A DNA stretch of 64,000 nt from Ectothiorhodospira sp. BSL-9 (GTDB taxonomy: Bacteria > Pseudomonadota > Gammaproteobacteria > Ectothiorhodospirales > Ectothiorhodospiraceae), in NCBI RefSeq assembly GCF_001632845.1, contig NZ_CP011994.1, forward strand, positions 1,612,001 to 1,676,000, written 5' to 3'. The notes under the pieces were generated by a model. That model saw only the letters and a list, made by a program, of their open reading frames with translations. It did not search any database and was not told the DNA's origin. A program made the translations under genes and the position numbers. The first letter of the stretch is position 1. Each line of letters opens with the position of its first letter. This document shows, piece by piece, positions 41,991-63,509 of the stretch.

Positions 41991-42094
41991 TATTAACCCG
42001 GCAATCAAACAAATCACTTTATCTTGCTTTTATTTGCTTCAAAATCAGCGACTTAACGGAGCCACGACGAACATGAATGGTCGCCGGGTTAATA
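41991..42094. repeat. 104-bp MITE-like repeat, copy A
   Basis: The 12-bp ends TATTAACCCGGC and GCCGGGTTAATA are perfect inverted repeats. The body is A+T-rich and non-coding. It matches copy B (50691-50794, reversed) without gaps at 84 of 104 positions by hand count. TA at each outer end suggests insertion at a TA dinucleotide, as for IS630/Tc1-type elements. The right end overlaps the last bases of the ABC transporter gene and holds its stop codon. Confidence 0.8.
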
Positions 42095-43894
42095 GCTTGC
42101 ACCCGCGACGAGCTCTTGGAAATCCTGACTCGAACTGGACAATTGATCCCAGTCGCCGGCAGCGACCACTCGGCCGTGGTTGAGCACGTAGATGTGATCA
42201 CAGGGCTTCACGGTGGACAGTCGGTGCGCCACTAGGATGATCGTCTTTTCTCCAGCCAGGTTGTGTATGGCCTCCATCACTGCATGTTCAGTGGCGTTGT
42301 CCAGCGCACTGGTGGCTTCATCAAAGAACAGCACCGCCGGGTCGCGATAAAGAGCGCGGGCGATACCGATGCGCTGGCGCTGGCCCCCCGAGAGGCGGGT
42401 GCCCCGTTCGCCAATGAGGGTGTTATAGCGATCCGGTAACTCCTCGGTCACGAAGTGATGCAGGTTGGCGAGCCGTGCGGCCTTTTCCACTGCGGTATGG
42501 TCGATCTGGTCTTCGGGCAAGCCCAATGCGATGTTAGCGGCTACCGATTGATCCGCAAGGAAGATGTGCTGTGGTACGTAGCCGATGGCCGCCTGCCAGT
42601 TTCGCGTGTTATTTGAGTCGAGTCGGGTATCGTCGATGTGTATTTCGCCGCGCTCGGGTGTGAGCAGCCCCAACAGAAGATCCACAATCGTGCTCTTGCC
42701 CGCGCCGGAGGAGCCAACGAAGCCCACAGTGGTATTGGCCCCTATTTGGAGTGACATGTCATCGATCGCGATTTTTTCGTATTCCGGGTAGCGGTAGGTG
42801 ACATCGGTCATCCGGATCGCCGTTTTGGGTTTTAACGGAATGGTTGCTTGCGACGTGTTGGGAAGGGGCGTGCTGCCGGGGTGGCGGCCAAGATCCTTGA
42901 TGATGTTGTCAACGGCGGCGGTGCTGAACCGCAGAGTGGTCATGGTAGAGAAGATCTTCTGAAATGCTGGGATCAACTGTCTACCGGCGAGGGCGTAAAC
43001 CCCGATCAGGGGCAGCGCCTGGGCGAGCCCACCGTCTCCGGCCATCAGGAACAGCACCAGGAGCAGTACGCCCCCAAACGCGATCGCCTCAATGGCGTAT
43101 TTCGGCATGCTTTGCAGCAGCAGAGCATTAGCCTGGTGGAGGGCATACCTCTTTGAGGGTCGCCGATAGCGTTCCAGATAGTCGCGTTCGCGACCGAGCA
43201 GGCGAATTTCCTTGGCTCCGGCAAAGGCTTCGGCCGCTGCCGTAAAACGTTGGCGGTTGGCCTCCACCCGGTCTTTTCCGATGCGACCCAGCCAGGTGCG
43301 GGCGAGGAGGTAGATGCCGCCATAGATACTGCCTAACAATAGTGCAACCGTTATGGAAAGTGCCGGATCCACCACGATCAGGAGCGCTATGATGAAAAGG
43401 GCCAGCAGGATCTGACTGACAAGACGCATCAGCGGCATGATCGCGCCGTTGGTGGCGTGGGTTGTTTCTTCCAGGATGGTTTTGGCCAGGTCTCCCGAGT
43501 TGCGGCCCAGAAAGAAGATGAAGGGGCGGCGCAGGTAGTCGCCCATCAGTCGCCGGGATAATTCATATTGCTGCATGTGCCCGAAGCGGGTAATGGCCCA
43601 GTGGGTGAAGGCCTGCAGGGCGGTACCGGTCAGGAAAATCACGAACGCCGCGACACCAAGGAAGTAAAGGAATCTGTCTGTGGACTCGAAGCCAAACCAC
43701 TCGAACAGGGTGCTGAGGAGACTGTTGGAGTGTACGACCTCAGGGTCGGAAAGTACTGCCAGGAAGGGCATGACAGACGCGACCCCCGCCGTCTGCATGA
43801 AGGCGGTGAAGATCATCAGGATCATCAAGATGACCACTTTGCTGCGGTCTCTGCGGTCGATCAGCCTGACGGTCTTGCGAACGATTTCCAGCAT
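42089..43894 (-). CDS. ABC exporter, fused membrane and ATPase domains (MsbA/PglK-like)
   Basis: About 601-aa half transporter that probably flips a lipid-linked glycan or exports a product. About six membrane segments lie in residues 15-310 (ILMILMIFTAFMQTAG; FLYFLGVAAFVIFLTGTALQ). The ATPase domain has Walker A GSSGAGKST, signature LSGGQRQRIG, Walker B VLFFDEATSALD and H-loop VAHRLST. The ATG at 43894 follows GGAGAA; a longer frame to 43966 lacks support. The stop codon TAA lies in the terminal repeat of the MITE-like element. Last gene of the minus-strand group 42-50.5 kb. Confidence 0.92.
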   Translation of the reverse strand: MLEIVRKTVRLIDRRDRSKVVILMILMIFTAFMQTAGVASVMPFLAVLSDPEVVHSNSLLSTLFEWFGFESTDRFLYFLGVAAFVIFLTGTALQAFTHWAITRFGHMQQYELSRRLMGDYLRRPFIFFLGRNSGDLAKTILEETTHATNGAIMPLMRLVSQILLALFIIALLIVVDPALSITVALLLGSIYGGIYLLARTWLGRIGKDRVEANRQRFTAAAEAFAGAKEIRLLGRERDYLERYRRPSKRYALHQANALLLQSMPKYAIEAIAFGGVLLLVLFLMAGDGGLAQALPLIGVYALAGRQLIPAFQKIFSTMTTLRFSTAAVDNIIKDLGRHPGSTPLPNTSQATIPLKPKTAIRMTDVTYRYPEYEKIAIDDMSLQIGANTTVGFVGSSGAGKSTIVDLLLGLLTPERGEIHIDDTRLDSNNTRNWQAAIGYVPQHIFLADQSVAANIALGLPEDQIDHTAVEKAARLANLHHFVTEELPDRYNTLIGERGTRLSGGQRQRIGIARALYRDPAVLFFDEATSALDNATEHAVMEAIHNLAGEKTIILVAHRLSTVKPCDHIYVLNHGRVVAAGDWDQLSSSSQDFQELVAGASY

Positions 43895-44007
43895 GAGGGG
43901 AATTTTCTCCGGGTAGTGCGACCACACTGTGCGCCCTGCTGGGGCGTTTCTGTGTGATTTTTTCAACGGTCATAAATATCTGGCAACGGGCTTGAGATAT
44001 TCGTCGA

Positions 44008-55389: not shown

Positions 55390-56520
55390 TCAGCCGTGGG
55401 TCTCGGGGCCTCTGTCATCGGATTGAGGGGTTTCCGGTTCTTTGGCGAGAAAGGCCTTGTGGAATAGATGCCGGGTTAGTAGAGGTAGCGGCATCTTGAG
55501 GTAATGGCCTCGCAGAAACAGCAGTCCGCGCGCCAGGGCGTCGGTGCGCGGTGTGTGGCTGTTGCGGGTGTTCAGGCCATGCAGGAATAGCTGTCTGTTG
55601 GCTGCCTGGAACGGCTTTGAGAGGGCGTGAGCCTTGAGATGCTGCTGGGCTTCGTTAGGAACGGGTGTGAGAAGACGTGCCTGACAGCAGGCAATGGCAC
55701 GCTCCAGCAGCCAGCCTATCCGTAGTTGTTCGGCTTCATCCAGAAGCTTCGACCAGAACGAGTCTCCCTGTTGTGACACGAAGTGCGTCACCAGGGTGTG
55801 AATGTCGTACAGGTCACGCAGGCCGCGATCCCACTCTGTTTCCGAAAACAGATGCACAACGCTGTGAAGCACCAGGTGGGTGGGAGCCAGTGTTTTGAAG
55901 CGCCAGGAGCCTGGCACTGAGGTGGCTTGGGTGATCAGTGGTGTGGCGTCGGTCCGAACCTTGAAGGTTTCCGGGAGGATGTTGTGGTGCAGATCCAGTG
56001 TGGTGCCGCGTTTATGGTGCTGCAGTGGCGGTAGTTCGTGCATCCACTGGCGGTAATAGCGCTGGTCGTATTCGTCGTGGTGGGTGGTGTTCCAGCCTTC
56101 GAAGAAGAGTAGCGACTCGGCTTGTTCCACCTGATCCCGCGGGAAGAGAAGGTCCAGATCATTGGCGACGCGACCGGGCGCGTTGGGCAACTCCGCCAGC
56201 AGATAGGCGGCCCCTTTGAGTGCGATAGCGGGGGGCAGCTTGGTGAGCAGTCCCTGATCCAGAATTTGCAGTTCCCAGCGCAGGGCTTCTGCGTTGTGCT
56301 GGGACAGACGGTATCCGCCCAGTAGATGTTGCGCGGGCTTTGTGGGCAGTTGACCGTGGATGCCGGCCAGTACGGCTAGATGCCACAAGGTGCCTAGCAG
56401 CGAGGTCTCGCGTGCGGCCGCCACCGTCCCCTCCCATTGTCGGGGGCTCAGTTCGGTCATGCTTTCCGGTCTGGCCAGTGCCCTGCATAGGCAGGCAGTG
56501 CCGTCAGGCTGCGATCTCAT
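55390..56520 (-). CDS. Nucleotidyltransferase-fold protein (NTP_transf_5 type), HPr-rel-A cassette
   Basis: 376-aa protein of the uncharacterised NTP_transf_5 group. Typical opening CLCRALARPESMTELSPRQW, core ALKGAAYLLAELPNAPGRVA followed by NDLDLLFPRDQVEQAESLL, where the D-x-D pair is the probable metal site, and DLHHNIL. The ATG at 56520 overlaps the kinase gene by 17 bp and includes the conserved N-terminal helix; a shorter start at 56460 would delete it. Relatives occur with PqqD-like and HprK-like proteins in peptide-modification clusters. Reaction unknown; nucleotidyl transfer to a protein or peptide is inferred. Confidence 0.8.
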   Translation of the reverse strand: MRSQPDGTACLCRALARPESMTELSPRQWEGTVAAARETSLLGTLWHLAVLAGIHGQLPTKPAQHLLGGYRLSQHNAEALRWELQILDQGLLTKLPPAIALKGAAYLLAELPNAPGRVANDLDLLFPRDQVEQAESLLFFEGWNTTHHDEYDQRYYRQWMHELPPLQHHKRGTTLDLHHNILPETFKVRTDATPLITQATSVPGSWRFKTLAPTHLVLHSVVHLFSETEWDRGLRDLYDIHTLVTHFVSQQGDSFWSKLLDEAEQLRIGWLLERAIACCQARLLTPVPNEAQQHLKAHALSKPFQAANRQLFLHGLNTRNSHTPRTDALARGLLFLRGHYLKMPLPLLTRHLFHKAFLAKEPETPQSDDRGPETHG

Positions 56521-57409
56521 CGAAGAGTTGAACGGCCTCCTCCAGACGGCTGTAGACGAAGTCAAAGGCTTCCACCTGTTCCATGAGATCTGCGGTTCGA
56601 TGAAAGGCAATGGTGCCAAGGGCCGCATAGTTGAAGGAATTGCCCGCCAGCCGCATGAAGGCCTCGCCGGGCGGGTGAGGGGTCAGGCGAGTTTCGGCGT
56701 TGGCTTCATAACGAGGGAAGACCACCCATCTGGGCTTGGCCAGTTCGCCTGCCCGTGCAACACTTTCGGCGGGTGGTCGCAGGTGTGCGACGGTGCCTTT
56801 CAGTGTGTCGTGGCAAATGGGGCCCATGCTTGCTCCCGGTGCGAATGACTGTATCACATCGATTGAGGCGTTCTTGAGGCTTACAGGGCGTGCCGGGCCG
56901 GTGATCTGGGCGGTTTCAAGGTCTACCAGTGTGGACTCATCGGTCAGCAAGCGCCAGCCTCGGCATGCCAACCCTGCGCAAAGGGTGCTTTTTCCGGACC
57001 CCGGTGGCGCGGGAAGGATGAGTGCCTTGCCGTTTTTTTCCAGCGCGGCGGCATGGAACACCAGGTATTGCGGGGCCTGCATGGCGATGCACCAGTTCAT
57101 GCCCCATTCGAGCATCGGGAAGGCTTGGTAGTAGGCCAGGGGTTTGAAGACGCTGCGGCCGTCGGCAAGGAACAGGACCTGGGGGTTATAGTAGCGGCGA
57201 ATACTGTTTGGCGGGCGCAACTCACAGTAGAAGTCGGCGAAGCTGTCTTCCGGGGCTAGGGTGAAGTCGCCGTACAGCGTTTTGAGGCCGATAGCAACCG
57301 AGGGGATGCGACTGCGGATTCTCGTGGTGAAAGGGCCGGTCACCAGCTTGAGTTGGCCTGTGGAGAGGCTTTGCTCTGTCTCTGGTAGTGAGAGGTCGGA
57401 GATCCTCAT
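56504..57409 (-). CDS. HprK-related kinase A
   Basis: 301-aa P-loop kinase related to HPr kinase/phosphorylase (TIGR04352-like). Walker A is APPGSGKST (about residues 134-142). The upstream His119 (YLVFHAAALEKNG) and the downstream acidic motif LLTDEST (Asp157-Glu158) correspond to the HprK catalytic elements. In classical HprK the target is Ser46 of HPr; no HPr or PTS gene is present here, so the target differs. The start overlaps the PqqD-like gene by 4 bp. Candidate target: the 232-aa protein at the head of the cassette. Confidence 0.88.
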   Translation of the reverse strand: MRISDLSLPETEQSLSTGQLKLVTGPFTTRIRSRIPSVAIGLKTLYGDFTLAPEDSFADFYCELRPPNSIRRYYNPQVLFLADGRSVFKPLAYYQAFPMLEWGMNWCIAMQAPQYLVFHAAALEKNGKALILPAPPGSGKSTLCAGLACRGWRLLTDESTLVDLETAQITGPARPVSLKNASIDVIQSFAPGASMGPICHDTLKGTVAHLRPPAESVARAGELAKPRWVVFPRYEANAETRLTPHPPGEAFMRLAGNSFNYAALGTIAFHRTADLMEQVEAFDFVYSRLEEAVQLFDEIAA

Positions 57410-57705
57410 TTTGAGCAGTCTAAGGCGAGACCAGACTGTACCAACGTGTCAATGATGGCTTGAAGTGTGTCTTCGATGTTCGCGAGGTTATCTTCATCCA
57501 GCGTCAGCAGGGTGGCGGCCTGAGGCTGGATGGCTTCCAGCGATCTGGGTTCGGTTGGGCTGAGTAGTCTCAGAATGTGCGCTGCTGGAGAGGAAAGCAT
57601 GTATGTCTCACCAGTGCCGCGGTGGAATCCCATGCATGTGGAACTCCACTGGCGGATTTCCACGTAAGGGTTGCAAATCCATGCGGGCGCATTGCATATG
57701 GTCAT
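57406..57705 (-). CDS. PqqD-family protein of the HPr-rel-A system
   Basis: 99-aa PqqD-like protein (TIGR04353-like). PqqD folds are winged-helix peptide-recognition elements that bind leader peptides for modifying enzymes. Visible features are the GETYMLSSPAAHILRLLS segment with the helix-capping Ser-x-x-Ala pattern of the family and the C-terminal helices DEDNLANIEDTLQAIIDTLV. It overlaps the HprK-related kinase gene (ATGA), indicating joint production of kinase and recognition element. Peptide binding here is inferred from the fold. Confidence 0.83.
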   Translation of the reverse strand: MTICNAPAWICNPYVEIRQWSSTCMGFHRGTGETYMLSSPAAHILRLLSPTEPRSLEAIQPQAATLLTLDEDNLANIEDTLQAIIDTLVQSGLALDCSK

Positions 57706-57816
57706 GGAGCGTTAAGTCTTGGCTGGGTAGTGCGTGGCTGTATTGTCATACAAAGCCGTCTGTGTCCTTATTGACTTGATGGCTAAGTATATCTGCCCCC
57801 ATGCTCCAAACCAAAA

Positions 57817-58515
57817 CTACAGTGTGATTTGTGGTCCCCAAGATGGTGTGTTCATGGTGTTCTCAAGGAAATTCTTGACCACTTCTGCACTCAGTTGTAC
57901 TTGCGTGCTCGTGGTGTAGAATCCTGTATTCAGAACCTCAGTGACAATCTCTTTCACCATCTCCTCGCTGAGCGGGTAGTCATGAGTGTCGCGCGCGTTC
58001 AGGAGCGCCGCAGCGCCGAAACGGATCAGTTGGCGCTTCATGTTTTCGACGGCAGTCCAACTCCTATCATAAATATCGTCATCGTCTTCGTTTTCATCAT
58101 GGTAGACGCCGTAGTTCCTCTGCACTGCATGTTCCATTGTGGCTTTAACGTATTCCTGAGCACTAGCATTATAGGCATAGTACTGTTCAATGACATCCTC
58201 GAATTCGTCATTGAACTTATCGCCTCTGCCCCATTCCCCGGACGCATCCCCCTGCCAGTAGCCAGGGGTCCGGCCTCCACAATCGACAGGATCCGTTTGA
58301 AGAGATGTATTGGCGGATATCCAACCCGATGGGTGGCAGTTGGCCATCCGCATCGTGTCCGCCATCAGGGGTTTGCTGCTCAATGTCATGAGCACGGGAC
58401 CCGACGCGAGGGCGGCCTTGGTGAGGCGACGGCGCTTCCGAGCCTGTTTGGACAGGGTCTCCTGAGGGCTGGTCTGCTCGGGTTGTGTTTGATCTGCGTG
58501 ATCATCTTGAGACAT
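57817..58515 (-). CDS. Unknown protein heading the HPr-rel-A cassette (candidate substrate)
   Basis: 232-aa protein of no family I can name. Residues 1-25 are polar and acidic. A basic run (KQARKRRRLTK, residues 23-33) leads into a hydrophobic stretch (AALASGPVLMTLSSKPLMA) like a Tat/Sec-type or leader region with possible cleavage near residue 52. Cys60 and Cys79 follow, then GGRTPGYWQGD, a TPGYW motif I have seen near the N-terminus of secreted proteins. The rest is helical and acidic (NEDDDDIYDRS). Start ATG 58515. A sigma-54-like promoter lies about 50 bp upstream. It is 111 bp before the PqqD-like gene on the same strand. Confidence 0.7.
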   Translation of the reverse strand: MSQDDHADQTQPEQTSPQETLSKQARKRRRLTKAALASGPVLMTLSSKPLMADTMRMANCHPSGWISANTSLQTDPVDCGGRTPGYWQGDASGEWGRGDKFNDEFEDVIEQYYAYNASAQEYVKATMEHAVQRNYGVYHDENEDDDDIYDRSWTAVENMKRQLIRFGAAALLNARDTHDYPLSEEMVKEIVTEVLNTGFYTTSTQVQLSAEVVKNFLENTMNTPSWGPQITL

Positions 58516-58572
58516 GTGAAACCCTCAGGGGAGCCGTTACGCGTTCCCCGTATTTGACTCGATGCCACTTTT

Positions 58573-58590
58573 AAGCAATTCTCAGGCCAT
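58573..58590 (-). promoter_or_regulatory. Candidate sigma-54 (-24/-12) promoter for the HPr-rel-A cassette
   Basis: On the minus strand the site reads ATGGCCTGAGAATTGCTT. It has GG and GC separated by ten bases and the TTGCT -12 element, matching TGGCAC-N5-TTGCW with two changes in the -24 part. It ends about 58 bp before the start codon at 58515, placing the expected transcription start about 48 bp before it. Confidence 0.6.
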
Positions 58591-59102
58591 CGTTGCTTGC
58601 TGGCTTAAGTGGTTGCTTTTGCGCCGCTATTTTCGCGTGGTTGGTTGCGTGGGGGCGGTGGCCTCTGCTTACTGTAAGGATATCCGTCGCCATGGCTGTT
58701 GCTGTTAGTCGATGGCGTCGGTTCAAGGGCGCTTGAAGCGCTCGACTGCCTCATTATGAGGCCAGCGTCGCGTATTTCAAGCACTACGCTCAAGGCATCT
58801 CCCGTGGCAGGGTCATGGATCAGGGAATCAACGCCCTACGGTACGCAGTCGTTCGGGTGGGCCAGAAGGCTTTCCAGAGAGACCGCCCCGCTTCGGTCAA
58901 TGGCGCATCCGTGTGGATGGCCGTGGAGAGCGGGTCTCAGGTTGCTTTAGGGTCAGCAATGGGCGGCCCTTTCTTGCGAGCTGCGTCACAGGTTTGCTTG
59001 TTGGATTGTAAACCGTTCCGACATGTCGAGGCCGCCGAACGTGGCCACGCTGAGTGGCTGCTCTTTGGGTGTTGTCGTGGCACCGGGAGGTTCTTACTTT
59101 GG
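58591..59102. other. Non-coding stretch left of the insertion element, with a possible gene remnant
   Basis: About 510 bp without an intact credible gene. On the minus strand one frame looks protein-like from about 58925 to 58605 (DRSGAVSLESLLAHPNDCVP, then GVDSLIHDPATGDALSVVLE), but it is broken by TAG at 58836-58838 and has no clear start. It may be a decayed small gene. Plus-strand frames here run into the insertion element and look spurious. Confidence 0.4.
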
Positions 59103-59992: not shown

Positions 59993-61337
59993 ATGCCCGA
60001 TCCCTCCCATGACCTGCGCCACGAGATCGCCCTGTTCCGTTTCGGGCTGATCGCCGACCTGGTGCGTCGACCGCCCGGCGCGCCCGGCCTCTATACCCAG
60101 CTCCATGCCATTGCCGCCCGCTCCCATCAGATCCCCGGCAGTGATCGCACCCATGTGGCCGCCGAGACCCTGCGGGACTGGATGAAGAAGTACCGCCAGG
60201 GGGGGCTTTGACGCCCTGCTGCCCAGGTCACGCCAGGATCGTGGCCAGCCCCGGCGTCTACCTGCAGCCGTGGCTGAGGCCCTGATCGCCTTGAAGGAGG
60301 AACATGCCTCCTGGTCCGTGCGCCAGGTGATCCGACACCTGCGCGACAATGGCGCGGTGGACGCGGATCTGCCGCTGCCGCCCTCCACCATCCACCGCCT
60401 GTTCACCCGTCATGGGCTGATGCAGCGCCAGGCCGAGGCCACTCATGACCAGGATCGCCGCCGCTTCGCCTTCGCCCGGGCCGGTCAACTCTGGTCCAGC
60501 GATGTCATGCACGGCCCCAGTGTCACTGTCGAGGGGCGCGTGCGCCGCAAGACCTATCTGATCGCCTTCATGGATGATGCCACCCGCGTGATCCCCCATG
60601 CCGCCTTCGCCCTGTCGGAGAACACCCGCGCCTTCCTGCCCGTGCTCCGCCAGGCGCTGAGCAAGCGTGGCCTCCCTGAACGCTTATACGTCGATAACGG
60701 CGCGAACTACCGCTCCCACCACCTGGCCCTGGTCTGCGCCAAGCTGGGCATTGCCCTGATCCACGCGCGCCCCTATCGCCCTCAGGGCAAGGGTAAAATT
60801 GAAAGGTTTTTCAGGACTGTACGGGCCCAACTGCTGAACACCCTCACACCGGAGGATACCGCCAGCCTGGAGGCCCTGAACCGGCGCCTGTGGGCCTGGG
60901 TCGAGGGGGAATATCACCACAACCCCCATCGCGGCCTGGAGGGGCTGACGCCCCTGGAGCGCTGGGCCCAGGACGGTGACCAGGTGCGCTATCTGGACCC
61001 GGGGATGGACCTGGAGGATCTGTGCCTGTTCGAGGCGGTGCGCAAGGTCCACAAGGACCGTACCGTCAGCCTTGATGGCGTGATCTACGAAGTGGATGCT
61101 GCCCTGATCGGTGAGCGCGTCACGCTGCGCTACGACCCCGGGGCCACCCGGCGCACCGTGCAGATCGTTCATCAAGGCCGGTACGTGGAAACCGCCAAGC
61201 CCGTGGATCTGTACGCCAACTGCTTCGTCAAGCGCAACACGCCCTCGCGCGAGGCCCGCAGCGAGGATCAGGCCCCGGAACCCAACCCCTCAGGGATGCA
61301 CTGGCGGCACTTCGACGCCGAGTCGGCGGAGGACTGA
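59993..61337 (+). CDS. DDE transposase (rve/TniA-like), split by a +1 shift at G7
   Basis: Transposase of about 447 aa if read across the shift. Part 1 (59993-60211) encodes PDPSHDLRHEIALFRFGLIA through KKYRQGGL and stops. Part 2 continues in the next frame (FDALLPRSRQDRGQPRRL, then MAEALIALKEEHASW near 60270). The change of frame falls in seven G at 60199-60205; removal of one G joins the frames exactly. The catalytic triad is intact: SSDVMHG, YVDNGANY and GKGKIERFF. The Mu-C-like beta-barrel follows (DRTVSLDGVIYEVDAAL). Either a programmed or slippage frameshift, a real mutation, or a sequencing indel. Confidence 0.85.
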
Positions 61338-61341
61338 GGCC

Positions 61342-62142
61342 ATGTACCGCAAGCACTTCGGCCTGACCGACTACCCCTTCGAACCCAACGTGAACAGTGA
61401 AGATCTGTTCGAGTCCCAGACCCTGCGGGAGGCTCAGGCCCGGCTCAGACACCTGCTGCGTCTGCGCGGCATCGGCCTGCTCACCGGCGAGGCTGGCAGC
61501 GGCAAGACCACCGCCTGCCGGCGCATCACCAGCACCTTGCACTCGGGGCTCTACCGCACCTTCTACATCCCCCTGACCACCGGCAACGTCATGGACATGT
61601 ACAAGTCCATCGCCTGGGAACTGGGCCTGCCCACCGAACGCAACCGCGCCAGCGCCTTCCGCCAGGTGCGCGCCGAGATCTCCCGGCTCACCCTGGAGAG
61701 CAAGCAGCTACCGGTGCTGATCATCGACGAGGCGCATCACCTGCGCAACGACGTCCTGGAGGATCTGCGCCTGCTCACCAACTACGCCATGGACTCCGAT
61801 CCCCGCCTGTGCCTGCTGTTCGTCGGCCTCACCGAACTGCGCCGGCGCCTGGGCATGGCGGTGCATGAGTCCCTGGCCCAGCGCCTTGTCGTGCGCCATC
61901 ACCTGGGGGGACTCAGCCGCGAGGAACTGCCCGACTATCTGGCCCACCGCCTGCGCCGGGTCGGCTGCGAACTGCCCCTGTTCGAACCCGAGGCCATCGA
62001 AGGCCTCTACCAGGCCACCCACGGCATGCCACGCCCCGTCGGCCGCCTGGCCCATTACGCCCTGACCTGCGCCGCCCAGGATCAGGTCCACCGGGTCAGC
62101 GCCGACCACCTGCAGACCGCCCTGGAGGAGTTGCGACCATGA
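61342..62142 (+). CDS. ExeA/TniB-like AAA ATPase of the insertion element
   Basis: 266-aa ATPase that would activate the transposase and help target choice. MYRKHFGLTDYPFEPNVNSE opening, Walker A TGEAGSGKTTACR, Walker B LPVLIIDEAHHLRN, sensor and Arg-finger region (ELRRRLGMAVHESLAQRLVV). The ATG at 61342 follows GGAGGACTGAGG; the frame is open further upstream but inside the transposase gene. It resembles the XrtA-operon ATPase at 10460 because both belong to the ExeA group. The 3' end overlaps the 68-aa gene by 4 bp. Confidence 0.9.
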   Translation: MYRKHFGLTDYPFEPNVNSEDLFESQTLREAQARLRHLLRLRGIGLLTGEAGSGKTTACRRITSTLHSGLYRTFYIPLTTGNVMDMYKSIAWELGLPTERNRASAFRQVRAEISRLTLESKQLPVLIIDEAHHLRNDVLEDLRLLTNYAMDSDPRLCLLFVGLTELRRRLGMAVHESLAQRLVVRHHLGGLSREELPDYLAHRLRRVGCELPLFEPEAIEGLYQATHGMPRPVGRLAHYALTCAAQDQVHRVSADHLQTALEELRP

Positions 62143-62345: not shown

Positions 62346-62668
62346 ACCCTCTCCCGGGCGCGAGTCACCAAAGGCTCGCGCCTACGCTCTCCCGCATCCG
62401 TTCACCTTCCAGGAATCCTTCACCCGAGGCCATAATCCGGGAAAAGCCTCGGCCTGCAGCCAGAATCCGTGTGGGAAAAGTGGGGTGGAATAGTCTGGGA
62501 AACAACACGGGGCATGCAGAGAGTGTCGGTTTTTTTTACTTTTACTCCGCCTGCAATGAGAGCTGAGTCACGTGGCTCCGCTTGCGGTTTGGTGCGTTGG
62601 GGACGTCTTGAGCGGTACGGCCGGCGCCGGAAAATGTTACGGCGAGCGCATTTTTTGAGACTTTCATC

Positions 62669-62765: not shown

Positions 62766-63509
62766 ATGGGGTTCAAGGCAGGCATGATGAAGAGGATGTC
62801 GGTGGCGGCGGCCATCGCAGGCGGGGTGTGTTTTGGGGGGGGCGCCCAGGCGAGCCTGATCACTTACACTTTGACCCCGTCGGACAAATCGAGCTTCGAG
62901 CTTGCCTCACCGGATCCCCATGGCCGGGTGAGCATCACTACGAATTGGCAGCCATTTGACGTGACGGTGGACCCTGATGACGGCTATCGGGTGACTGGCA
63001 TTGATGGCTTCAACCCGGTGCAAATTTCGTTTGATAATGCCGAGAGGAGCGCGAATGACTCCGGGAGTGGCTGGTCCTCTCGGTCAGGGTCAGAGAGTTT
63101 CTCCAGTGAATTCACCCTGAAGCTTGATTTGGCCGAGGCTCCGTATGGGGCGTGGGAGGGCACACATGAGGTGCGGGGTGAGCTGAGCTATAACGTAGCA
63201 TGGAGCTGGGATAGGAAATTCTTGTTTATTTTCCCATTGCCTTGGGAGCTTTCGAGTCATCAAAGCTCTGCGAGAATCGACTGGACTGACGCGCTTTTGC
63301 TTGGGTCGATTGAGGATGAAGCTTACATTGAGGTGAGTTTTTCTGATCATTATCTCCGGCCTGGGGGGAGTAATGCACTGGCCACCCCAGTCAGCGTGAC
63401 CGGGCACGCCAATCCTCCCAGTGAGGTGCCCGAGCCGACGGTGTTGATGTTGTTCGGGGCCGGACTCCTCGGTTTGGGCTTCCTGCGTCGCCGTCGTAAT
63501 ACGGTTTAA
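62766..63509 (+). CDS. PEP-CTERM protein (exosortase A substrate)
   Basis: 247-aa exported protein. Signal peptide at residues 8-29 (MKRMSVAAAIAGGVCFGGGA). The body is beta-rich and polar, with a Ser-rich stretch (SGSGWSSRSGSESFSSEF) that could be glycosylated. It ends with a canonical sorting tail: VPEPT, a hydrophobic helix (VLMLFGAGLLGLGFL) and RRRRNTV. XrtA at 14.7 kb should cleave at the PEP motif. AAGGAG lies 6 bases before the ATG. Its promoter region now sits directly beside the insertion element. Function of the mature protein unknown. Confidence 0.93.
   Translation: MGFKAGMMKRMSVAAAIAGGVCFGGGAQASLITYTLTPSDKSSFELASPDPHGRVSITTNWQPFDVTVDPDDGYRVTGIDGFNPVQISFDNAERSANDSGSGWSSRSGSESFSSEFTLKLDLAEAPYGAWEGTHEVRGELSYNVAWSWDRKFLFIFPLPWELSSHQSSARIDWTDALLLGSIEDEAYIEVSFSDHYLRPGGSNALATPVSVTGHANPPSEVPEPTVLMLFGAGLLGLGFLRRRRNTV

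Follow-up and report, generated by a model that had tools for sequence, protein, structure and literature searches.

The closest described relatives of the gene set analyzed here are pathways that combine a recognition element of ribosomally synthesized and post-translationally modified peptides (an RRE and RiPPs, respectively) with an HprK-like kinase and a nucleotidyltransferase. Clusters for linear polyphosphorylated peptides (LPP), a family published in 2026 and stated to occur in Bacillota only, encode a precursor, an RRE, an HprK-like kinase, an NTP transferase, a SpI-like peptidase, and an exporter; the kinase places several phosphates onto Ser 3 of the core, after the leader, and no effect was visible in the test host when the NTP transferase was deleted (PMC13381572, available part of the text). 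For pseudomycoidin, the available part of PMC9266682 describes phosphorylation by PsmK followed by the addition of hexoses to the phosphorylated Ser by PsmN, nucleotidylation not being excluded, and gives His-Lys-Asp-Asp as the signature of lasso kinases. A third entity is the HPr-rel-A system of NCBIfam (TIGR04352 and TIGR04353, the latter a 'PqqD family peptide chaperone'), whose models name no substrate, regulation, or export route. Here, we analyzed a 64,000-nucleotide stretch of the Ectothiorhodospira sp. BSL-9 genome (contig NZ_CP011994.1, 1612001-1676000; hereafter, the window), which carries a four-gene cassette with the same kinase and PqqD-like families, and we add to the HPr-rel-A description a family of head proteins, their leader resembling a twin-arginine translocation (Tat) signal, and a PEP-CTERM box. 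The head protein, the 232-aa product of the first gene, is a conserved partner of the cassette and, as judged from sequence comparisons, is probably chemically modified by it before leaving the cell.

The cassette comprises the following genes (window positions):
57817..58515, minus strand: head gene, 232 aa, first open reading frame (ORF) of the cassette, candidate substrate
57406..57705, minus strand: PqqD-like (putative RRE) gene, 99 aa, TIGR04353
56504..57409, minus strand: HprK-related kinase A gene, 301 aa, TIGR04352
55390..56520, minus strand: NTP_transf_5 gene, 376 aa with the probable ATG at 56520, PF14907

This order, and the overlap of the last three genes, had been proposed in a first-pass annotation of the DNA and were confirmed by the ORFs and family matches. 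The PqqD-like and kinase genes overlap by 4 nt, and the kinase and nucleotidyltransferase genes by 17 nt (125 nt with the longest ORF of the latter, which begins at 56628 and encodes 412 aa; homologues favour the ATG at 56520). The kinase scores 399 bits against TIGR04352 (cut-off 200), the nucleotidyltransferase 169 bits against PF14907 (cut-off 31), and the PqqD-like protein 33.8 bits against TIGR04353, slightly below the cut-off of 35; the head protein gave nothing better than E 0.17 in Pfam and NCBIfam. The host genome, a single contig of 3.55 Mb, contains one TIGR04352 gene and one PF14907 gene. Its sole PTS-HPr match (at 437461) and sole Hpr_kinase_C match (202 bits, at 435635) are 1.3 kb apart; because this single pair is more than 1.1 Mb away, the window has no HPr match, in agreement with the annotation, which had also spoken of other genes of the phosphotransferase system, not searched for here.

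To describe the distribution of the head protein, three sets of loci were used. The order set comprised 47 genomes, 24 of them with TIGR04352 over its cut-off, and 23 loci besides the window were retrieved. The phylum sample comprised 398 genomes, 61 with TIGR04352 over cut-off, and 40 of these loci were retrieved. The named set held the best 80 of 587 confirmed kinase places, which were found by the kinase only and favour close kin of the window kinase. A leader profile built from 59 order- and phylum-set heads was run on the six-frame ORFs of at least 40 aa in the named loci, and four loci with weak kinase or head matches (L080-L083) were excluded from the head and neighbour counts. The resulting set of 138 heads stems from 24, 36, and 78 loci with a leader match at E<=1e-4; for 137 of them, the upstream DNA was long enough for the sigma-54 counts. 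The alignments comprised 26 sequences each (A2 and A4), 60 of 109 non-redundant leaders (A3), and 40 sequences (A7).

The head gene is located directly upstream of the kinase gene in all 24 order loci and upstream of it in 36 of 40 phylum loci, two sets that also supplied the seeds of the leader profile. Among the named loci (best 80 of 587), the leader was matched at E 1e-4 or better in 78, and in 74 the head precedes the kinase, shares its strand, and is at most 1.2 kb away; four further loci (L166, L215, L219, and L222) have a leader match outside this rule, and two (L209 and L213) have none, L209 containing a similar-looking ORF by eye. Twenty control windows from genomes of these sets gave no leader match below E 0.05 and no cassette match. 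At the genome level, the leader alignment (60 sequences) found a match at E<=1e-6 in 49 of 61 kinase-positive versus 0 of 337 kinase-negative genomes, and at E<=1e-3 in 57 of 61 versus 14 of 337, none of these 14 better than E 1e-5; outside the seed set, it was found in 13 and 17 of 20 kinase genomes at these two thresholds. Given these co-occurrence counts, the four-gene arrangement is not due to chance, and homologues of the 232-aa protein, whose wide occurrence without the cassette would have spoken against the annotation, are, as judged by the leader match, not widespread without it in these genomes.

The head gene is also paired with the PqqD-like gene in the absence of the kinase: the two adjoin on kinase-free stretches (L265, L266, L267, L270, and L272) of five genomes (G171, G115, G314, G068, and G231), and G231 has in addition a second, complete set in which the kinase and nucleotidyltransferase are fused in one 706-aa ORF (L132:8968-11088). 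Carriers among the named loci include Thiobacillus denitrificans, T. thioparus, and Massilia species; the cassette is not confined to Pseudomonadota, since it was also found in an Acidobacteria metagenome-assembled genome and in Malonomonas rubra (Thermodesulfobacteriota) (L201 and L212). A genome below the kinase cut-off (G142, locus L273) contains a diverged form of the cassette, with a weak leader match, a weak HprK-like protein, and, on the other strand, a diverged PF14907-like ORF, all within about 4 kb.

The window head protein consists of several characteristic parts: (i) a polar N-terminal tail (residues 1-26), (ii) a basic-hydrophobic, twin-arginine, Tat-like signal (27-52), (iii) the motifs C60-x-x-S63-G-x-x-S67-A-N69-x-S71 and C79-G-G-R-T-P-G-Y-W87, which contain its only cysteines, at 60 and 79, and (iv) C-terminal helices carrying AAxLNA (169-174). 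Twin arginines followed by a hydrophobic stretch have the look of a Tat signal. Since a script rule found this arrangement in 137 of 138 heads, the family looks Tat-exported; the tail before the signal has a median of 31 residues, a basic c-region residue is present in 114 of 138 heads, and the host genome encodes TatC. Most heads are 160-290 aa by longest ORF (129-165 aa in family f46), with a conserved N terminus and a variable C terminus.

In subtype i (57 heads picked by a motif rule, 46 of which are in alignment A5), residues C60, S63, S67, S71, C79, W87, N173, and A174 are 95-100% conserved, the three serines at 98%, 98%, and 95%, respectively. The structural model of the window head has a mean predicted local distance difference test (pLDDT) score of 71, with a disordered leader and a confident helical C-terminal part, and S63, S67, and S71 are all on one helix. 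The C-terminal ends of other heads are different (SCWxS in 14 of 33 subtype-ii heads, GFTCFASLQ in f46); therefore, the acceptor residue predicted below applies to subtype i only. No PDB chain was matched by the head sequence at E<=1, and structure comparison gave at best Z 2.6; thus, no known fold was found for the head, which is not proof of a new fold. Assignment to a broader GYW-domain superfamily was considered and rejected, Pfam and NCBIfam searches with 46 heads having given nothing better than E 0.009.

The PqqD-like family resembles the B1 recognition proteins (RREs) of lasso peptides: a profile search of the PDB retrieved TfuB1 (6jx3, E 8e-5) and TbiB1 (5v1u, E 0.024). TIGR04353 was matched by 39 of 40 cassette members at E<=0.01 and PF05402 by 10 of 40. 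In the kinase family, H119, K140 (P-loop), D157, and E158 are invariant in 26 of 26 aligned sequences, the PDB match is 1jb1 (E 7e-4), and Hpr_kinase_C was found in 7 of 26 members. The NTP_transf_5 family retrieved nothing from the PDB by sequence at E<=1; the structural model (pLDDT 91) matched MenT1 best (Z 12.6 over 178 residues, root-mean-square deviation 2.8), followed by TM1012 (Z 10.2), MenT3/TglT (up to 10.1), ANT(2'') (9.6), and FKRP (5.1). Residues D116, D118, and D171 (A4 numbering), invariant in 26 NTP_transf_5 sequences, would be the catalytic aspartates of a nucleotidyltransferase core of the pol-beta type. Judged by sequence, the kinase and nucleotidyltransferase look active. 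A toxin-antitoxin function, as the MenT1 match might suggest, was considered but not retained, because the gene regularly belongs to an operon of the biosynthesis type.

Comparison with the available descriptions of LPP clusters (PMC13381572) revealed the following common features: (i) a precursor or head with a discrete RRE, an HprK-like kinase, and an NTP transferase, (ii) a conserved N terminus and a variable C terminus of the precursor or head, and (iii) location in polysaccharide loci. The phosphorylated Ser of LPP is next to the leader cleavage site, with which the S63/S67/S71 cluster behind the predicted signal is compatible. The two differ in the leader ([Y/W]xxP in LPP; Tat-like in the cassette, with YxxP in 1 of 138 heads), in the precursor, which has 35-200 aa in LPP, and in the hosts, which are mainly Pseudomonadota for the cassette. 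LPP clusters further include an MsbA-like exporter; the window encodes a PglK-like ATP-binding cassette (ABC) transporter. No SpI-like leader peptidase was found among the scanned cassette-locus proteins (for the window, among the 25 of 334 NCBIfam families listed). As described in the available part of PMC9266682, the paeninodin and pseudomycoidin pathways (PadeK, PsmK, PsmN) likewise combine an HprK-like kinase and a nucleotidyltransferase with a B1-type RRE, but lasso kinases have the signature H-K-D-D and cassette kinases H-K-D-E; the lasso cyclase NF033535 is absent from the cassette scans and from the families listed for 39 window proteins (listed down to E 5e-96). The annotation's comparison with lasso-peptide kinases holds at the level of families (PMC9266682 and PMC13381572, as far as available). 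Without the YxxP leader and lasso cyclase features, the cassette is not a member of either group, and in our best reading of these likenesses, it would be a relative in logic of the LPP and paeninodin pathways that acts on an exported protein.

The annotation had further called the system undescribed. NCBIfam, however, already names it, and LPP have been published for Bacillota (PMC13381572); the available part of that paper does not mention Proteobacteria, Pseudomonadota, PqqD, twin-arginine, or Tat. What stands is that no paper was found under HPr-rel-A, TIGR04352, TIGR04353, PF14907, or NTP_transf_5, subscription literature being mostly outside reach.

Three putative regulatory sites were found upstream of the head gene:
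58574..58589, minus strand: sigma-54-like -24/-12 site TGGCCTGAGAATTGCT, 74 nt ahead of the start codon of the head gene
59007..59023, minus strand: PEP-CTERM box TGTCGGAACGGTTTACA, 17.3 bits, PEP-CTERM motif 1 (PMC1569441, available part)
36 nt after the box at 59007..59023, minus strand: weaker sigma-54-like site AGGGCCGCCCATTGCT

According to the available part of PMC1569441, motif 1 of the PEP-CTERM/exosortase regulon with PrsK/PrsR is a 17-mer ending in TTTACA ahead of a sigma-54 site, and its spacing to the 17-nt motif 2 has a mean of 62.8 and a range of 32-92. A motif 1 with this ending and a sigma-54 site precede many cassette heads as well; the difference is that the regulated gene here is the head of a modification operon and not a PEP-CTERM protein. 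Of 137 heads, 52 have a sigma-54-like site scoring at least 18 within 200 nt, versus 1 of 280 control-window genes and 69 of 1744 other genes of the same loci. An unsupervised word count detected TGTCGGAA in 23 of the 79 sequences that precede the stronger sites and AATTTACA in 17 of them (shuffle maximum 10), and the enriched words have the form of motif 1. A matrix for this box was matched before 105 of 138 heads; the corresponding rates were 0.58% in a set of 1200 control pieces and 0.24% in shuffled upstream regions. The spacing from box to sigma-54-like site is 79.7 +- 12 nt (89 heads with a site scoring at least 16.5). PrsR was over cut-off in 24 of 61 kinase-positive versus 21 of 337 kinase-negative genomes, and of the 12 phylum-set loci that belong to PrsR-positive genomes and fall outside families f46 and f79, 10 have the box. 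A second window box, at 62524-62540, is ahead of the PEP-CTERM gene at 62766. Thus, on the evidence of DNA motifs, the cassette often appears to belong to the exosortase regulon of PEP-CTERM and exopolysaccharide genes, in many lineages.

Our preferred reading, which we hold with modest confidence as somewhat better than an even chance, is that the operon serves to produce one exported protein and to modify it, the cassette enzymes acting on the head before export. The proposed pathway includes the following steps: (i) the exosortase regulator PrsK/PrsR and sigma-54 would, here and in many other lineages, switch the operon on together with PEP-CTERM and exopolysaccharide genes, as the DNA motifs suggest, (ii) the PqqD-like RRE would bind the N-terminal part of the head in the cytoplasm and present the head to the enzymes, consistent with the gene pairing and the family relation, (iii) the HprK-related kinase would phosphorylate a Ser, in subtype i most likely within the S63/S67/S71 cluster, (iv) the NTP_transf_5 enzyme would then add a nucleotide, or a sugar as described for PsmN (PMC9266682, available part), to the phosphorylated residue, (v) the modified head would be exported by Tat and its signal removed, and (vi) the exported head may function on the cell surface or within the exopolysaccharide, as the regulon and locus suggest. 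A more specific and rather unlikely version is that the RRE reads the Tat signal region as an export gatekeeper, so that the full-size head is held in the cytoplasm until the kinase and nucleotidyltransferase have added the phosphate-linked group and is then exported, the group joining it to the exopolysaccharide; if true, the exosortase regulon of Pseudomonadota would include a new class of anchor or primer between protein and polysaccharide.

Several observations weigh against modification of the head before Tat export, or limit its generality. The leader motif [Y/W]xxPx[LVIFA] is present in only 1 of 138 heads, and leader recognition must therefore differ from that by lasso and LPP RREs. 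The generic Tat model TIGR01409 matched 1 of 46 heads at E<=0.1 (E 0.029). The Ser cluster is a feature of subtype i that is absent or in the minority in subtypes ii and iii; thus, the phosphosite cannot be identical in all heads. The gene set is not always complete or contiguous: the head and PqqD genes of one genome (G127) are on different contigs, another (G260) has the head alone and the other three genes together elsewhere, 4 of 40 phylum loci have a kinase without a nearby head, and TIGR04353 is not matched at E<=1e-3 in 7 of the 61 kinase genomes. Among six such TIGR04353-negative loci examined, the head-kinase gap contains a fairly clear, diverged PqqD-like ORF in two (L143, E 6e-5; L148, 5e-4), a weak one in two (L141, 0.014; L145, 0.04), and no detectable one in two (L146 and L147). 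The regulation varies as well. In the window, the box is 36 nt from the weak sigma-54-like site and 417 nt from the better one, compared with the usual distance of about 80, and no sigma-54 site was found at that spacing from the box. The box was found in 0 of 5 f46 loci although PrsR is present, and none of the 19 loci from PrsR-negative genomes has it (for one, L140, in only 168 nt of upstream DNA); the regulon link is thus not general. The annotation's tie between the sigma-54-like promoter and the PEP-CTERM/exopolysaccharide regulon therefore stands for many lineages but not for all, and in the window, the spacing of box and promoter is abnormal.

The kinases without a nearby head bear on a different explanation, in which the target of the kinase, RRE, and nucleotidyltransferase is some other small peptide, or a sugar or lipid intermediate of exopolysaccharide synthesis, and the head is a co-regulated exported partner only. 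The four phylum loci in question (L130, L131, L137, and L144) also lack a PqqD-like gene beside the kinase, three of them have the nucleotidyltransferase, and some are by eye beside glycosyltransferase, FemAB-like, or sugar-nucleotide genes. The window itself is an exosortase A (XrtA) exopolysaccharide locus: comparison of 39 proteins with NCBIfam gave, among the 25 of 334 families listed, XrtA, a chain-length determinant, three PEP-CTERM/XrtA glycosyltransferase families, and FemAB-type and O-ligase-type proteins. However, three of the four genomes carry a head-PqqD pair at another site and in the fourth the two genes are found on different contigs, and the leader was never found at E<=1e-6 without the kinase in 398 genomes, a linkage tighter than co-regulation requires. 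We consider this explanation improbable.

About equally improbable, in our estimate, is that the head is a RiPP-like precursor cut to a shorter, perhaps secreted product, as in LPP and lasso peptides. The core enzymes are those of LPP (PMC13381572, available part), the conserved N terminus, the variable C terminus, and the short f46 heads would fit a precursor, and a candidate processing enzyme exists: in a clustering of crude gene calls of at least 100 aa in 144 loci, a short exported trypsin/HtrA-like protease was found by profile close to the cassette in 51 loci but in none of the 20 control windows (G[DN]SG motif in 39 of 40; for example, L210:5211-5987 and L135:7258-8040), and the window contains the PglK-like ABC transporter (42089-43966). 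However, the protease was not found among the window ORFs, and elsewhere it occurs within a few kb of the cassette on either side and either strand; the N terminus resembles a Tat signal with a basic c-region and not a YxxP leader for an RRE; and most heads are 160-290 aa long by longest ORF, with a C-terminal part confidently modelled as helical in the window head. A role of the HprK-like protein as an ordinary HPr kinase in a carbon-regulation module, suggested by its family resemblance to HprK, is rejected as very improbable, since the genome has its own Hpr_kinase_C protein beside its single HPr gene and TIGR04352 forms an equivalog of its own, which here mostly accompanies the head, PqqD, and NTP_transf_5 genes.

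Other recurrent neighbours of the cassette include an XrtA amidotransferase in 13 loci, all of the phylum set; the asparagine-synthase neighbour that was scanned is TIGR03108, over its cut-off and far below the lasso cyclase cut-off. A cluster of ABC proteins in 12 loci brings together unrelated members, one of them ABC-F, and was not counted as an exporter, and many further recurrent neighbours reflect shared synteny among close relatives. In the window, a VanZ-like protein (PF04892; 53841-55349, plus strand) is encoded just past the 3' end of the cassette, and a VanZ-like-looking ORF cluster was observed in 19 of 144 loci, which all belong to the order set. A 965-aa protein with beta-helix regions similar to pectate lyase and chondroitinase B (PF14592, PF13229; 50789-53686, minus strand) is possibly an exopolysaccharide-modifying enzyme. 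The stretch that separates the cassette from the PEP-CTERM gene at 62766 encodes, at 60270-62142 on the plus strand, an Integrase-core/Mu-type transposase (rve, Mu-transpos_C) and an AAA ATPase, which probably constitute a transposon.

The preferred reading provides this gene set, whose kinase is over the curated cut-off in 61 of 398 genomes of the phylum sample, with a candidate substrate, a regulator, and a chemistry that can be tested. If this reading is true, the logic of RRE, kinase, and nucleotidyltransferase known for small peptides of Bacillota would extend to exported proteins of Gram-negative bacteria and, in many of the Gram-negative carriers, would be tied to exopolysaccharide genes.

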